DNA of 33,920 nt, from contig JAJYCY010000017.1 in assembly GCA_021778035.1 (NCBI GenBank), positions 1 to 33,920 on the forward strand, written 5' to 3'. The DNA comes from Pseudomonadota bacterium (GTDB lineage: Bacteria > Pseudomonadota > Gammaproteobacteria > Acidiferrobacterales > UBA6901). This document shows, piece by piece, positions 9,425 to 33,920 of this stretch (its first letter is position 1; the number at the start of each line of letters is the position of its first letter). The translations under genes were made by a program, and so were the position numbers. Below the pieces are notes generated by a model. That model was given only the letters and a program-made list of their open reading frames with translations, had not been told where the DNA came from and did not search any database.

Positions 9425-12181
9425 ATGATACCGTTGCATCCGAGAGACCTTGTGCGCACCGGTTTCCGCTCACGGATCCACCAGCTGCCGGTTGCCGATG
9501 CGCTGCGGGATCTTGGAAGCGCGGTGCAGGGTCTGGCGGCTGCCGAAGCCCAGCGCAGGCTTGATGCCTACGGACCAAACCGCGTGGAGGAAGTGGGGCG
9601 CGATCCGCTCGTGCTGCGTTTCCTTAGGGAGTTTACCCGCTTTTTCTCCATTGTGCTGTGGATCGCCGCCGGTCTGGCGCTGCTCGCGGAGCACTACGAA
9701 CCCGGCCAGGGGATGGCAAGGCTTGCCTACGCCATCATCATTGTAATTGTGGTGAGTGGCGTCTTCTCGTTCTGGCAGGAATATCGTGCGGAACGCACGC
9801 TCAATACGCTGCGCGAGCTGCTCCCGCCGCAGGCAAAGGTGCTGCGTGACGGAAACCTGGTGCAGCTGCCGGCTGCGGAGCTTGTGCCTGGTGACGTCGT
9901 GCTGCTCGCGCAAGGCGACAGCGTGCCTGCGGATTGCCGCCTCATCGAGGGTTTTGCGGTTCGGGTCAACAATGCCACGGTCACCGGGGAGTCCCTGCCG
10001 CTGGCACGGGAGGCCGGTCCCGCCACCGCAGAGGAAGCAGTCTGGGCCAGGAATATCCTGCTTGCCGGCACCTCGCTTGTCTCCGGCCACGCCACCGCCG
10101 TCGTATTTGCCACTGGTGCGTATACCGAATTCGGCAGGATCGCCCACCTCGCGCAGACAGGGCGGGAAGCGGTATCGCCGCTGCGCCGGGAGATTTCGCA
10201 TCTGAGCCGGCTGATCATCGTTCTGGCCGTGATCATCGGAGCAGTGTTCCTGGCAGTAAGCTGGTGGGCGGTCGGTATCCGTTTTTGGCGGGCTTTCATT
10301 TTCGCGATCGGAATCATTGTTGCGATGGTGCCAGAGGGCCTGCTCCCCACGCTTACTCTTGCGCTCGTTCTGGCCACGCAGCGTATGGCCAGGCGCAACG
10401 TGCTCATCCGTCATCTACCGTCGGTCGAGACCCTCGGGTCCACGACTGTGATCTGCACTGATAAGACCGGTACGCTGACGCAGAACCGGATGCTGGTAAA
10501 ACGGTTATTTCTCGAAGACCGCTTCCTGCCGATGGAAGAGGCGGTGAGTTCCCGGTCTGGTTCCGCACGCTACCGGCATTTTTTCATGGGGGCGCGTCTG
10601 TGCCACGACCTCAGGGAGGGGCTCGCGGACGGAAAAAAAGTGCTTCTCGGCGATCCGATGGAAGTTGCCCTGGTCGAGATGGCGGGGGCGTCGCAGTACG
10701 ATGTGCCCACGGGGCGGCGGACGTTCGAGGTACCGTTTGATGCTGACCGCATGCGCATTTCCGTGGTGTATGAACAGGCTGACGGATCCATCGTGTACTG
10801 CAAGGGGGCGCCGGAGAAGGTGCTGCCGCTCTGCAGCCGGACCCTGGTTGCAGGCGAAATCCGCCCTTTTCCGGCTGAGCTTCGTAGCGCTGTCGTGCGC
10901 GCGCAGGAGGAAATGGCTGGACAGGGGCTCAGGGTCCTGGCGTTTGCCTATCGCCCCACCGGATCGACGCTCGAGCAGGAACATCTTGAAGAGGACATGG
11001 TGTTTACCGGCCTCGCAGGTCTCGAGGATCCGCCGCGCCCGGAAGTGGCCGCAGCGGTTGCCCGCTGCCGCGACGCAGGCATTCGTGTCATCATGATAAC
11101 CGGAGATCATCCGCGCACGGCCATCGCGATTGCGCGCGAGACAGGACTTGTGTACACGCAGACCGTGCGTGTGCTCACCGGGGAGATGCTGCACCGGCTT
11201 TCTGACATAGAGCTGCGCCTGGCGCTGGACGGGGGGGAGGTCATCTTTGCGCGGGTGAGCGCCGGTCAGAAGCACCGGATCGTCGAGGCGCTGAAGGCAA
11301 AAGGGGAAGTGGTGGCAGTCACGGGTGACGGCGTGAATGACGCTCCGGCGCTGAGAAGCGCCCATATCGGCATTGCCATGGGTGTCGCGGGAACGGATGT
11401 GGCGCGGGAAGCCTCCGACATGGTACTGCTCGACGACAACTTCGCCAGTATCGTCAGTGCGATTGAAGAGGGCCGGGCCGTTTTTCAGAACATCCGCAGG
11501 TTCCTCACCTACATTCTGACGCACAATGTCGCGGAGCTGGTTCCGTATCTTGCCTTTTCCCTGTTCGGCGTTCCGCTGGCACTGACACCCATCCAGGTGC
11601 TGTCGATTGACATGGGTACCGACTCGCTGACCGCTCTTGGTCTTGGTGTGGAGCGTCCCGCCCCCGACGTCATGCGCGATCCGCCACGTCCTGCCGCAGA
11701 GCGCCTGCTCAATCTTCCGCTGGCGTTGCGTGCCTATCTGTTTCTGGGACTGATCGAGGCCGCGGGGTCCATGGCTGTTTTTTTCTATGTCCTGCACGGA
11801 GGAGGGTGGAGCTGGGGCGGGGGCCTGGCATATGGCAGCCCGCTTTACAAGGAGGCCACGGCCAGCTGCCTGAGTGCAATCATCGTGATGCAGATTGCCA
11901 ATGCCTACCTGTGCCGGAGTCCGGTGGAGTCGGTGTTCTCGACAGGATTTTCCGGGAACGTTCTGATAGGCTGGGGTGTCCTGCTGGAAATCGCATTGAT
12001 GCTGATTATCGATTATACCCGGGTGGGCAACGCCATCCTGGGGACCCGGCCTCCGGCCCCGGATGTCTGGTTCGTCATTGTTCCGCTGGCCGCTGGTATG
12101 GCGCTGCTCGAGGAAGCACGAAAATGGCTGGTCCGTACGCGCCGCAACGGCAGCGCTGGCGGCAATGATGGGCACGGTTGA
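9425..12181 (+). CDS. P2-type cation-transporting ATPase
   Basis: 918 residues from ATG 9425, chosen because GAGGTGGGGG lies just upstream; an earlier ATG at 9371 has no such site. The order is canonical: N-terminal cation ATPase domain (LGSAVQGLAAAEAQRRLDAYGPN), TM1-2, actuator with TVTGES, TM3-4 with the PEGL ion-site motif, phosphorylation motif DKTGTLTQNRM (Asp at about 346), nucleotide-binding CKGAPE, MITGDHPRTA, hinge GDGVNDAPALRSA, then a C-terminal domain of about six TMs. PEGLLPTLTLAL, NVAELVPYLAF and DMGTDSLTALGLG are closer to Na,K/H,K-type (IIC) than to heavy-metal pumps. It should export or exchange Na+, K+, Ca2+ or H+ at the cytoplasmic membrane. The ion cannot be fixed by eye. 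The next gene overlaps it. Confidence 0.95.
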   Translation: MIPLHPRDLVRTGFRSRIHQLPVADALRDLGSAVQGLAAAEAQRRLDAYGPNRVEEVGRDPLVLRFLREFTRFFSIVLWIAAGLALLAEHYEPGQGMARLAYAIIIVIVVSGVFSFWQEYRAERTLNTLRELLPPQAKVLRDGNLVQLPAAELVPGDVVLLAQGDSVPADCRLIEGFAVRVNNATVTGESLPLAREAGPATAEEAVWARNILLAGTSLVSGHATAVVFATGAYTEFGRIAHLAQTGREAVSPLRREISHLSRLIIVLAVIIGAVFLAVSWWAVGIRFWRAFIFAIGIIVAMVPEGLLPTLTLALVLATQRMARRNVLIRHLPSVETLGSTTVICTDKTGTLTQNRMLVKRLFLEDRFLPMEEAVSSRSGSARYRHFFMGARLCHDLREGLADGKKVLLGDPMEVALVEMAGASQYDVPTGRRTFEVPFDADRMRISVVYEQADGSIVYCKGAPEKVLPLCSRTLVAGEIRPFPAELRSAVVRAQEEMAGQGLRVLAFAYRPTGSTLEQEHLEEDMVFTGLAGLEDPPRPEVAAAVARCRDAGIRVIMITGDHPRTAIAIARETGLVYTQTVRVLTGEMLHRLSDIELRLALDGGEVIFARVSAGQKHRIVEALKAKGEVVAVTGDGVNDAPALRSAHIGIAMGVAGTDVAREASDMVLLDDNFASIVSAIEEGRAVFQNIRRFLTYILTHNVAELVPYLAFSLFGVPLALTPIQVLSIDMGTDSLTALGLGVERPAPDVMRDPPRPAAERLLNLPLALRAYLFLGLIEAAGSMAVFFYVLHGGGWSWGGGLAYGSPLYKEATASCLSAIIVMQIANAYLCRSPVESVFSTGFSGNVLIGWGVLLEIALMLIIDYTRVGNAILGTRPPAPDVWFVIVPLAAGMALLEEARKWLVRTRRNGSAGGNDGHG

Positions 12182-29435: not shown

Positions 29436-29918
29436 ATGATCGATGAAAACGGTTACCGGCCTAATGTGGGAATCATCCTGTGTAACGGTGACGACCGCGT
29501 GTTCTGGGCGCGGCGGTCGAGCCAGGATGGTTGGCAGTTCCCGCAGGGTGGCATCAAGCGCAGCGAGACTGCCGAGCAGGCCCTGTTCCGCGAGCTGCGG
29601 GAGGAGATCGGACTGGACCGCGACCATGTCCAGCTGATCGGCCGCACGCGCGACTGGCTGCATTACGATATTCCCCGGCGCTATCTGCGTACCGCGCGCC
29701 ATACCCAGTTCCGCGGCCAGAAGCAGATCTGGTTTCTGCTCAGGCTGGTGGCGCAGGACGAAAACGTCCGGCTGGACACGACCGAAGACCCGGAATTCGA
29801 CTCATGGCGCTGGGTTGATTACTGGAGTCCGCTCGACAACATTGTTGAATTCAAGCGCCGGGTCTATGAGCAGGCGCTGACCGAGCTCGCGCCGCTCCTG
29901 TCCGGAACATCCGGGTGA
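29436..29918 (+). CDS. rppH: RNA pyrophosphohydrolase RppH
   Basis: 160 residues, matching the family. [17 protein letters not shown] is the near-invariant RppH start, WQFPQGGI is the conserved RNA-binding stretch, and the Nudix box is [23 protein letters not shown] (G-x5-E-x7-REUxEExGU) with all catalytic Glu residues present. [10 protein letters not shown] and [12 protein letters not shown] close the domain. RppH removes pyrophosphate from the 5' end of transcripts and starts RNase E-dependent mRNA decay. No strong ribosome-binding site precedes ATG 29436. It is divergent from the HAD hydrolase and its TGA overlaps the GTG of the next gene (GTGA), so the pair is translationally coupled. Confidence 0.97.
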
Positions 29919-30535
29919 TCGACAGGCTTCTCGATCTTCCGGGCCGCAGCGTCTATCGCCTGCATGGAAGTGGCGCCGCGGCGACGGTCTATTATCTCGC
30001 GGATGATGCTGCCGGCGGCGTCCTCATCAATACACCCCGCTACGATGCGCAGCTCGAGGCCCGTCTTGCTGCCCTCGCACCGGTGCGGTTCCTGTTTTTC
30101 CCGAGCCATTTCGGAGCCTGCGATGTCGATCTCTGGCGCGCGGCGACCGGGGCCGAAAGCCTGGCGTTTGCCGCTGAGACCGGATCCATTGCCGGAACAG
30201 TGGACATCGTGCTCGAACGCCAGAGCAAGCTTACGCGCACGATCGACCTGCTGCCCATGCCCGGGCGTACCGCCGGCAACGCCGTGTTGCATGCCCGCAA
30301 TCTGCCAGGTGTGGTGTTTTTCGGACCGGCGCTCACTCCTGGCGGGTCCGGCTGGCCGGCGCTCGTCCGGCAGCCAGATGATCATTCGTATGAAAACCGA
30401 CTGTTTGGCTGTCTCGCCCTGCAGGACCTGGACTTTGCCTATGCCTTTACCGATGTTTTCGTGGAAGGCATGACCTGCTTCGGTCCTGGCGCCTCGCGCG
30501 CCATCCGGCAGGAACTTGAACGTGTTCTGGCCTGA
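29915..30535 (+). CDS. Metallo-beta-lactamase-fold protein lacking zinc ligands
   Basis: 206 residues from GTG 29915, overlapping the rppH stop (GTGA). The strand order resembles an MBL fold: [30 protein letters not shown] (first beta sheet), [32 protein letters not shown] where the HxHxDH motif should be, then [32 protein letters not shown] in place of the PGHTPGS...GD motif. The zinc-binding His and Asp residues are mostly absent ([15 protein letters not shown]). If the fold assignment is right, this is a non-catalytic or metal-free member. Coupling to rppH suggests, without proof, a role in RNA metabolism. A completely different fold cannot be excluded. Confidence 0.7.
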
Positions 30536-30710: not shown

Positions 30711-33700
30711 GTGACACCGATGCAGCACCGACATCCTGTCGCCGCGACGGCGCTGCTGGTGGCGACTGCGCTGGTCGGGATGATTGCGTTTGTCCATCTC
30801 CATGCCGGCCTGCCCTCGTTCCTGCGCTATCCCGCGGTGCAGGTGTCGGTCCGGGATCCGGGATTCGCCGCCTCGGCCATGGATCGGCGCATCGCCCGTC
30901 CCCTGCTTGACGATCTCGCACGGATTCATGGTCTGCGTGATTTGCGCAGCCGGAGCACGGAGGGTGAAACGGTGGTCACCCTGGTTTTCAGGAGTGATTC
31001 CCGGCTGGACCGCGCCATGCCGCAGCTGGGCGCGCTGCTGGCGGGCAATCTGGCGCTGCCGGCGTCCGCCATGCATCCCGAGCTGACCAGGCTTGCTGCG
31101 CCAGACCGGATTGCGGGCGATATCATGGTGACCGGCAAGGATCAGTCGTTGCCAGCGCTGCGTATCTGGACCGAGGACACGCTGCTGCCGCAGTTCCTGG
31201 GCATCGGCGGCATTGCCGGCGGCAGGATCGAGGGCGGTCCGGTTCGGGAGATACGCGTGGTGCCCCGACAGGGGCGGCTTGCGCGGCTCGGTCTTGCACC
31301 GGGTGATGTGGCTGAAGCGGTACGTATCGCGCAGAGACAGCAGCATTCGGGCTATTTCGCCGCAGCGGCGCACTCCGGACCCGCGGCCGTCGCGGCTCTG
31401 CCGGTGAGGTTGCCGAACGGGAACATACTGGCGCTGTCCCAGGTTGCCGTCGTGCGGCAGGTAAGCCGGCCGGGCGCGGAGGTGCGCCTCGATGGCCGCC
31501 CGGCGATCCGCCTGGTGCTGCGGCGTGCCCGCAACCGGGATCCACTGGCAGCGGCCGCTGCCATCAGGGCGCATGCGGACTGGTTGCGGGCAAACGGACT
31601 GCTGCCGGCAGGCGTGCAACTGCAGGTGCATTCGGTTCTGGCACGGTATCTGTCGGATCTGCTGCACCGGTTCGCGGTGATGGCTGTCGTGAGCCTGGTG
31701 CTGGCGGTGGCGCTGGTGGTCCGCACGGCCGGAAGCGCGCGTGATGTCGCACTGCAGCCTGTGGCCGGACTTGCCGCGCTGTTCGGTACGGGCGCGGTCC
31801 TGGCCGTGACTGGCAGTTCACTCAATGCAATGGACCTGAGTGGACTGATCGTCGCTTCCGGCCTGTGCCTGGCGGCTCCACTTTCGCTGTGCGCCTACGC
31901 GCCGCTGGCGGAGCGACCCGCCATCACCAGGGCGCTGTATGCGGTCCTGCCGGTGGCCATTGTCCTGCTCGCGCTGCTGGCAGTGCCCGGCCCGCTGCGT
32001 CTGCTGTTCCGCGATTTTGTCGTTGTGGTGCTCTCGGCTCTCTGTCTGTCTTTCATCCTTGCTGTTGCGGTGGCCGGTACCGTGCCCGGAGGGGGTGTGC
32101 GGCGGACCAATGCGGCGGGCGGATGCCGGCTGGCGGGGGGGTGCTACCGCCGATGGGTGGTGAGCGGCACCGGGAAACCCGCGCGTGCTGCCGCTGCATG
32201 GGTTGCGACGGCTGGTATTCTGGCGGCCGTGGCTGCGCTCGCGTTGCGCGGGATGGAGTTCTTTCCGCCGCCCGGGACCGGCGAGGTGCTGGTGCGCATC
32301 CGCGCCGTCGGCACCGCCGGCGCCCGCAACCTCAAGGCCCAGGTGCCGCACATTCTCGGAATCGCCCGTTCACTGGGCGGAGTGGCACGGGTGACCTCCA
32401 TCATGGATGCTGCCCCGGCAGGCCGGCTGCGCCTGCACGTCGTTTTTGCCGGCCACCCGGGAGCGGCGGAGGCGGAACAGTGGGTGCAGTCGTTCGAACG
32501 CTCGGTCCGGGCTACCGGGCTGCAGCATCTCCGGATCCGGGCCGTGGCCGCCGCATTCCCCGGAGTCCGTTCCAGCCGTCGGAGCACCCCGGTGCTCGGA
32601 GCCATGGAAGGACTCGCTGCTGTCGAGGTGACTGGCCCCGCCGGACCTGCACCCGACGGCGTCGGTGCCCGCGTTGCGGAAATCCTGAGTGCCTTCCCGC
32701 AGCTGCGCGACGTGCGGCTGTCATCAGCGCGGACCACCGCCGGTCTTGCTCTGCACCTGGACCCGGTGCTTGCCGCGGAACACGGTGTTGACGAAATGCA
32801 GGCGATGCGTGCGCTGCGTATCGCGCGCGGCGGTGTGGTGGCCGGCACGCTTCTCGAAGGAGAGCACCGGCACGCCATACGCGTGGTGCTCCCGGCATCC
32901 GCCGGGCGGTTTGCGGCGCTGCCCGCCTTGCTGCTCCGGGGCGAAACCCGGACACGGCGGGCGGTGCATCTGGGTGATGTCGCCACCATCGCACGCGTGA
33001 GCGGGCCGGCAGAATATCTGCGCGATCACGGGCAGCCGGTTGTGACCGTGACCGGGGTGCTGACCGCGCAGGGGTCAGCGGACGGAACGGTGGATGCGCT
33101 GCGGCAGCGCATCGCTGCACTCAGCCTGCCTCCAGGCTACCGGCTGTCTCTGGGCGGGGTTGCTGCTGTAACCGGAGAAGTCGCACATGAGATGGCTGCT
33201 TGCGGTCTGGGCGCGCTGCTGGCACTGCTGGCTGCGCTGGCCTGGCGTCATCGTGGATGGCGCCGTCCGCTCATCATCCTGCTGGGCGCCTTGGTGCCGG
33301 TTGCCGGTGCGCTAGCGGCGCTTGCAGTCGGCGAGCATACGCTGTCTGCGCCGGGGTGGATCGGACTGGTCATCGGGGTGGCGACATCGGCAGGGCTGAC
33401 GTCTCTTGCAGTGGATGTCCTGGACAGCTGCCGGCCGGCCGGACCATACCGTGGCGCACTGCTTGCGGCGTCGGCCCTGCGGGCCGCCCCGGTTGTGGTG
33501 CAGATCGGCGTACCAGTGCTGGTCGGTGCAATCCTGCTGGGCGTGGCCGGGGGGTCTGCTTTCGCCATGCTGCGGCCCCTGGCACTGGCACTGGCGGGCG
33601 GGACGGCGGCCGGCATGGCTGGCTGTCTGCTGTGGACTCCGCTTTTCTATATGATCCTGCTGGGTGAACGCCGCGCCGCGCGGCTGCAAAGCGGCGGACA

Positions 33701-33713
33701 GGCACCGGAATAA
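30711..33713 (+). CDS. RND-superfamily permease (AcrB/CzcA-like), atypical
   Basis: 1000 residues from GTG 30711, preceded by AGGTGA; an earlier TTG at 30591 is less likely. Topology is that of full RND pumps: TM1 near residues 10-28, a ~300-residue periplasmic region, TM2-6 around 315-455, TM7 around 490-515, a second periplasmic region, and TM8-12 to about 990. YPAVQVSVRDPGFAASAMDRRIARPLLDDLARIHGLRDLRSRSTEGETVVTLVF matches the conserved RND start, and MEFFPPPGTGEVLVRIRA the start of the second half. In TM4, where CzcA/CusA have VDAAIV with the proton-relay Asp, this protein reads LAAPLS, so usual proton coupling appears lost. No membrane-fusion or outer-membrane partner is adjacent. The substrate is unknown. 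Confidence 0.88.
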   Translation: MTPMQHRHPVAATALLVATALVGMIAFVHLHAGLPSFLRYPAVQVSVRDPGFAASAMDRRIARPLLDDLARIHGLRDLRSRSTEGETVVTLVFRSDSRLDRAMPQLGALLAGNLALPASAMHPELTRLAAPDRIAGDIMVTGKDQSLPALRIWTEDTLLPQFLGIGGIAGGRIEGGPVREIRVVPRQGRLARLGLAPGDVAEAVRIAQRQQHSGYFAAAAHSGPAAVAALPVRLPNGNILALSQVAVVRQVSRPGAEVRLDGRPAIRLVLRRARNRDPLAAAAAIRAHADWLRANGLLPAGVQLQVHSVLARYLSDLLHRFAVMAVVSLVLAVALVVRTAGSARDVALQPVAGLAALFGTGAVLAVTGSSLNAMDLSGLIVASGLCLAAPLSLCAYAPLAERPAITRALYAVLPVAIVLLALLAVPGPLRLLFRDFVVVVLSALCLSFILAVAVAGTVPGGGVRRTNAAGGCRLAGGCYRRWVVSGTGKPARAAAAWVATAGILAAVAALALRGMEFFPPPGTGEVLVRIRAVGTAGARNLKAQVPHILGIARSLGGVARVTSIMDAAPAGRLRLHVVFAGHPGAAEAEQWVQSFERSVRATGLQHLRIRAVAAAFPGVRSSRRSTPVLGAMEGLAAVEVTGPAGPAPDGVGARVAEILSAFPQLRDVRLSSARTTAGLALHLDPVLAAEHGVDEMQAMRALRIARGGVVAGTLLEGEHRHAIRVVLPASAGRFAALPALLLRGETRTRRAVHLGDVATIARVSGPAEYLRDHGQPVVTVTGVLTAQGSADGTVDALRQRIAALSLPPGYRLSLGGVAAVTGEVAHEMAACGLGALLALLAALAWRHRGWRRPLIILLGALVPVAGALAALAVGEHTLSAPGWIGLVIGVATSAGLTSLAVDVLDSCRPAGPYRGALLAASALRAAPVVVQIGVPVLVGAILLGVAGGSAFAMLRPLALALAGGTAAGMAGCLLWTPLFYMILLGERRAARLQSGGQAPE

Positions 33714-33820
33714 ACCGCGACACTCTCGCGTCTCATTCCTGCGCAGCAGCGGCTGGATCCCGGCCTTGAATCCGGGAGGCGCTGCGGCAGAAATTCACCC
33801 CGTATTCCCAGGAGACTCCC

Positions 33821-33920
33821 GTGACAACTCTTGACCGCAGATCCTTCCTGAAGAGCAGCCTTGCAGGCAGCGCCCTTGCGCTGTCGGTGGCCGCCGGCCT
33901 GCTGAGCCCGAGGCGCGTGC
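33821..33920 (+). CDS. soxY: Twin-arginine exported protein, probable SoxY (3' end outside window)
   Basis: Only 33 codons are present, from GTG 33821 with AGGAGA seven bases upstream. The sequence is a twin-arginine signal: DRRSFLK, then a hydrophobic core SSLAGSALALSVAAGLL, ending near SPRRV where the window stops. The R-R-x-F-L-K box and AAGLLxP core are like SoxY, the periplasmic carrier subunit of the thiosulfate-oxidising Sox complex, but the carrier cysteine at the far C-terminus is not in view. Other Tat substrates could look the same over 33 residues. If it is SoxY, soxZ should follow directly. Confidence 0.5.
   Translation, partial: MTTLDRRSFLKSSLAGSALALSVAAGLLSPRRV

Follow-up and report, generated by a model that had tools for sequence, protein, structure and literature searches.

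A full-length RND protein lacking proton-relay residues and an adaptor gene, upstream of soxYZ in a genus of Acidiferrobacterales

The locus analysed here raises the question of why a whole RND-type permease should be retained beside a gene of sulfur oxidation when both the residues that drive such a pump and the genes of its partners are missing. The window (the whole stretch of DNA analysed, 33920 bp) is the entire contig G000:C29 of a 2.17 Mb genome that is 90.5% complete, and it holds the following features.

29436..29918, + strand: rppH (RNA pyrophosphohydrolase; NF001937, 241.9 bits vs 139), the upstream anchor of the conserved locus, overlapping orf206 by 4 nt
29915..30535, + strand: orf206, filling the slot of the adaptor (MFP) gene; 74–77% identical within the genus
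30711..33713, + strand: relay-less RND (AcrB-like) protein, 1000 aa, assigned by Pfam ACR_tran, the AcrB fold and alignment with AcrB, MdtBC, CusA and its own paralogues
31248..31463, + strand: docking subdomain DN, the most conserved region within the genus (0.68 pairwise)
31827..31892, + strand: TM4, with LAAPLS; relay codons 388–389 (Ala-Ala) at 31872–31877, and the genus-specific Asp375 at the periplasmic end
32739..33002, + strand: docking subdomain DC, the second most conserved region within the genus (0.67 pairwise)
33345..33404, + strand: TM10, with Gly (residue 895) where AcrB has K940 and the relatives have Asn
33821..33920, + strand: 5' end of soxY, with a GTG start and the Tat signal DRRSFLKSSL, cut by the contig end; continuation taken from G001:C4 and G002:C97

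Fold, proton-relay residues and partner genes

The RND reading frame, which offers a GTG start at 30711 and an ATG at 30720 on the + strand, scores 214 bits with Pfam ACR_tran (E 3.6e-63; cut-off 28 bits). Its AlphaFold model, made from an alignment of 58 sequences (pLDDT 77.7, pTM 0.76), predicts 12 TM helices, the porter subdomains and both docking subdomains, and compares with AcrB chains at TM-scores of 0.78–0.83, in agreement with the 12 TM segments and two RND halves described in the initial annotation. With ACR_tran, 12 TM helices and porter plus docking subdomains, the protein agrees in domain content with HAE-1/HME permeases. The protein falls below the NCBIfam permease subfamily cut-off (NF033617, 198.5 bits vs 1250), as does its normal relative from Sulfurifustis (674.9 bits). 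Orthologues with 48–55% identity occur in four further species, and what is said below of the genus refers to five draft genomes of this one genus, in one of which (G003) the orthologue lacks the C-terminal quarter.

The functional hallmark of RND pumps is their TM4 aspartate. Alignment with AcrB, MdtB, MdtC, CusA and the protein's own paralogues sets Ala-Ala (residues 388 and 389) of its TM4, AMDLSGLIVASGLCLAAPLSLC, at AcrB D407/D408, which upholds the earlier reading of LAAPLS in place of the relay Asp and puts neither Asp nor Glu at the relay site. The other AcrB relay positions have changed as well (E414 to Ala, K940 to Gly, T978 to Gln). Across the five species the D407 column reads A, A, G, A, L; within the motif GxxxDxxxxxxE, G403 is kept while D407 and E414 are absent from every one of them. 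K940 is Gly and T978 is absent in all four species that cover TM10–11, and within the genus the window protein alone retains Arg in the R971 column. D407 and E414 are both present in 70/70 normal relatives, and each of the genome's five other RND proteins keeps D407. Four other species show the same loss in their genomes, so that an error of sequencing or assembly in TM4 was rejected as its cause. The motif was present in all 254 RND proteins examined from Burkholderia (PMC2891726), and in MexB charge-changing mutations of the aspartates abolish transport (PMC5719797).

No acidic residue lies in the bilayer core of TM4 or TM10 in the aligned proteins of the genus. The only conserved new acid of TM4, Asp375, is fixed in 5/5 species at a site where the relatives have Thr or Ser; it stands at the periplasmic end of the helix, 13 residues from the normal relay site, and it lends no support to the suggestion that the protein is driven another way.

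The locus holds no MFP or outer-membrane gene, as had been noted at the outset, and the five genomes of the genus (90–99% complete) yielded no orthologue of the cognate MFP, their best MFP matches reaching only 24–34% identity. Other MFPs are present elsewhere in the window's genome.

The locus across Acidiferrobacterales and the soxY junction

The closest RND relatives outside the genus are Acidiferrobacterales permeases encoded in the order rppH-MFP-RND-soxYZ (28–31% identity, best E 2.4e-91). A scan of genome contigs with the window protein as sole query gave no matches; with the normal relatives as queries it gave 80 loci, in which every full-length RND protein keeps the relay. The relay-less type was found neither in the other 52 genomes of the order nor among 369 sampled genomes of the class, and the RND gene is missing in two genera of the same family (G005, G006). 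In an approximate maximum-likelihood tree the genus stands beside the normal clade and outside the Acidiferrobacterales part of it, with a branch length of 1.57 substitutions per site; this position is likely to reflect long-branch placement, and the orthology of the RND gene therefore rests on synteny.

Genes for GGDEF-EAL, BtuD, BtuC and histidinol-phosphatase-like HAD proteins, together with rppH, flank the locus in other Acidiferrobacterales too. The order rppH-MFP-RND-soxY-soxZ, with a normal RND gene, was found in the complete chromosome of Sulfurifustis variabilis skN76 (G017; 3,958,814 bp) and at G015/L060, L058 and L062; L059/G016 and L061/G011 show rppH-MFP-RND with little or no DNA beyond and no soxY match there; in L063 and L064 several kb separate RND from soxY; and in a sister family (f4; G027, G031, G049) the order is rppH-orf206-soxY-soxZ, with no RND gene. 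Considering that the window's genus has rppH-orf206-RND-soxY, the MFP gene is gone, orf206 stands in its place and the RND gene has stayed. The window RND is either a descendant or the closest sister of the normal MFP-RND pair between rppH and soxYZ. Moreover, as the RND-soxYZ order is common to normal pumps, it predates the loss of the motor, and the adjacency is old within the order.

The orf206 family (about 205 aa) lies directly after rppH both in the genus and in family f4, and directly before soxYZ in three genomes. No match was obtained in Pfam, NCBIfam or the PDB, and a single-sequence model was useless (pLDDT 37.8). A by-eye reading as a metal-free metallo-beta-lactamase fold was dropped when hmmscan of 14 members, a PDB search and comparison with the GloC profile gave it no support.

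The SoxY-like Tat gene annotated about 100 bases downstream begins 107 bp after the RND gene, and the window holds its first 33 codons (100 bp). In a sister species (G001:C4) the continuation scores 153.9 bits against the 125 of TIGR04488 and carries the Tat signal and a C-terminal GGCGG; sister-species contigs run into full soxY-soxZ, and the idea that an ordinary Tat gene had been mistaken for soxY was thus rejected. The last 127 bp of the window (33794–33920) recur without a mismatch at the end of another contig of this genome, C71 (L025 19343–19469), on which the soxY start stands after soxX. Correspondingly, in G001 the RND contig and the soxX contig each overlap, by exactly 127 bp, a contig that continues soxY-soxZ-soxA, and in G002 each overlaps by 77 bp a contig that continues soxY-soxZ. 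The breaks look like de Bruijn-graph junctions at a soxY start that occurs twice in identical form, behind soxX and behind the RND gene; the window contig would then end inside soxY because that start is duplicated. The two copies are identical at least over the overlapping stretch. In the Sulfurifustis chromosome the RND-linked and soxX-linked SoxY proteins are 70% identical, so the two copies are old in the order.

Several side observations belong here. The duplication breaks assemblies of the genus systematically, sister-species contigs ending at the same soxY start. Past the joined soxYZ, soxA follows in G001:C4 (L035) and an opposite-strand EAL-domain gene in G002:C97 (L036), the latter matching the rppH-orf206-soxYZ-EAL order of family f4; given these differing genes, the two contigs are probably exits of different soxYZ copies. 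On G000:C71 (L025 11347–19469) the sulfur cluster runs, with names given by eye except for soxX and soxY, through HdrA-, HdrB- and HdrC-like, DsrE-like, TusA-like and rhodanese genes to an M48-like protease gene, soxX and soxY; an M48-like gene also lies upstream of the soxX-soxY copy of Sulfurifustis. The HdrA-like gene contains about 100 consecutive N (L025 around 11850–12060), masked or a scaffold gap.

Does the adjacency mean anything? Homologues of the protein do occur near sox genes in Acidiferrobacterales, and the RND gene directly adjoins soxY in G017, G015/L060, L058, L062 and four species of the window's genus, which argues against mere accident. On the other side, a soxY match was found in the stretch of DNA retrieved around only 5/80 relatives of the normal RND gene, all in the rppH-linked Acidiferrobacterales group and none outside it, the f4 genomes keep soxYZ at the locus with the RND gene absent, the two genes in the window do not overlap, and L063 and L064 have them kilobases apart. 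We therefore give slightly better than even chances to an accidental adjacency with no functional tie of the RND protein to sulfur oxidation, a reading compatible with our preferred explanation of the protein itself. The proposed link to sulfur oxidation thus stands as gene position, seen in several Acidiferrobacterales families, and is weakened by the normal pump found there, the sister family without RND and the outside relatives without soxY.

Selection and conservation within the genus

Pairwise dN/dS of the RND gene in the genus is mostly 0.30–0.45 at dS of 0.2–1.2 (Nei–Gojobori), against about 0.1–0.2 for the neighbouring genes. The gene is under purifying selection, weaker than that on its neighbours, and since its values are two to three times theirs, part of the pattern is relaxed constraint. 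In the full-length copies about 1000 codons have stayed open at dS up to about 1.2, with no stop and no frameshift.

The constraint that remains is turned round, with the docking domain best conserved and the relay helices relaxed. Pairwise identity of the docking domain is 0.67 in the genus vs 0.40 in normal pumps matched for overall identity, while that of relay helices TM4, TM10 and TM11 is 0.50 vs 0.82; in the matched pumps the relay helices are among the most alike parts and the docking domain among the least. The docking/core ratio of the genus is 1.21, and 400/400 sampled normal-pump quartets fall lower (maximum 0.62). Under a column bootstrap within the genus, docking exceeds core (95% interval 0.01–0.22) and porter (0.08–0.20). 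Additionally, the genus has a DN hairpin some 10 residues shorter than that of normal relatives, so the docking crown has been altered.

Could the gene simply be decaying, useless as a pump after adaptor loss and drifting towards loss, its frame not yet broken in five species? A dN/dS above that of all neighbours, the long branch and the absence of the gene from G005 and G006 would fit such a fate. Set against them are the open frame over that divergence, the new Asp375 conserved in all five species and a docking domain whose conservation exceeds that in working pumps; given that decay would cost the core its excess of conservation without relative gain elsewhere, we argue against simple decay and regard it as unlikely. 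Still less probable is a protein that goes on pumping through other residues (e.g. Asp375 of TM4 or Asp902 of TM10), with another ion, or as one member of a heterotrimer, alongside a proton-competent RND protein and served by a borrowed adaptor: the fixation of Asp375, a Glu947 to Asp change in 4/4 species, the other MFPs of the genome and the existence of a heterotrimeric RND pump, MdtBC (PMC8277102), speak for it, and against it speak a bilayer core of TM4 and TM10 devoid of acids, relay helices no better conserved than the remainder, and a nearest own RND paralogue that, at 26% identity, is too distant for easy co-assembly.

A possible periplasmic role and known RND systems

We favour, as fairly probable, the explanation that the window protein is a permease now devoid of proton motor and adaptor, retained for a passive function that faces the periplasm. 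The loss of the relay in 5/5 species, the loss of the MFP and a docking domain that has overtaken the TM core in conservation together argue well, at the level of sequence, for the non-pumping RND derivative proposed initially. With proton sites and adaptor lost, the protein would, judging from the established work on AcrB and MexB, be unable to pump; it may still form a membrane-anchored trimeric funnel of the AcrB type, whose docking crown, to go by the conservation pattern, would serve to hold a further protein of the periplasm or outer membrane or to set its position. SoxYZ, encoded directly downstream, is a candidate partner by gene position alone. In its most specific form, with the trimer as a fixed periplasmic platform whose docking crown binds SoxYZ (or the orf206 product or an outer-membrane partner) and the sulfur carrier held at the membrane, the proposal is speculative, and we would give it only a slim chance.

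In all five known species of this sulfur-oxidising genus, then, the protein has probably been reused for a non-pumping job, the periplasm-facing part being chiefly under selection. A whole 1000-residue RND protein kept through speciation after motor loss would be a natural separation of scaffold from motor, and suggests that the RND architecture is selectable for something other than export; the shift of constraint to the docking crown gives a defined place in which to look for a partner. In the literature covered, outside which most subscription journals lie, we found no report of relay-less RND proteins or of an RND-soxYZ link.

Finally, three known systems may be compared. The f4 locus shares the flanks, the position of orf206 and the downstream soxYZ with the window and differs in the absence of the RND gene. 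The rppH-MFP-RND-soxYZ permeases of Acidiferrobacterales (Sulfurifustis variabilis skN76 and metagenome-assembled genomes) occupy the same conserved chromosomal place; unlike the window protein they keep D407, E414, N940, R971 and T978 together with the MFP, and they are 61–66% identical to the Sulfurifustis permease, whereas the window protein is about 30% identical to it. With the HAE-1/HME permeases (AcrB, MdtB/C, CusA) the window protein shares the fold, the two 6-TM halves, the porter and docking subdomains and the length; it differs from them in being without D407/D408, E414, K940, T978 and an adaptor gene, in its shortened DN hairpin and TM4–TM5 linker, and in having the docking domain, not the TM core, as its most conserved part.
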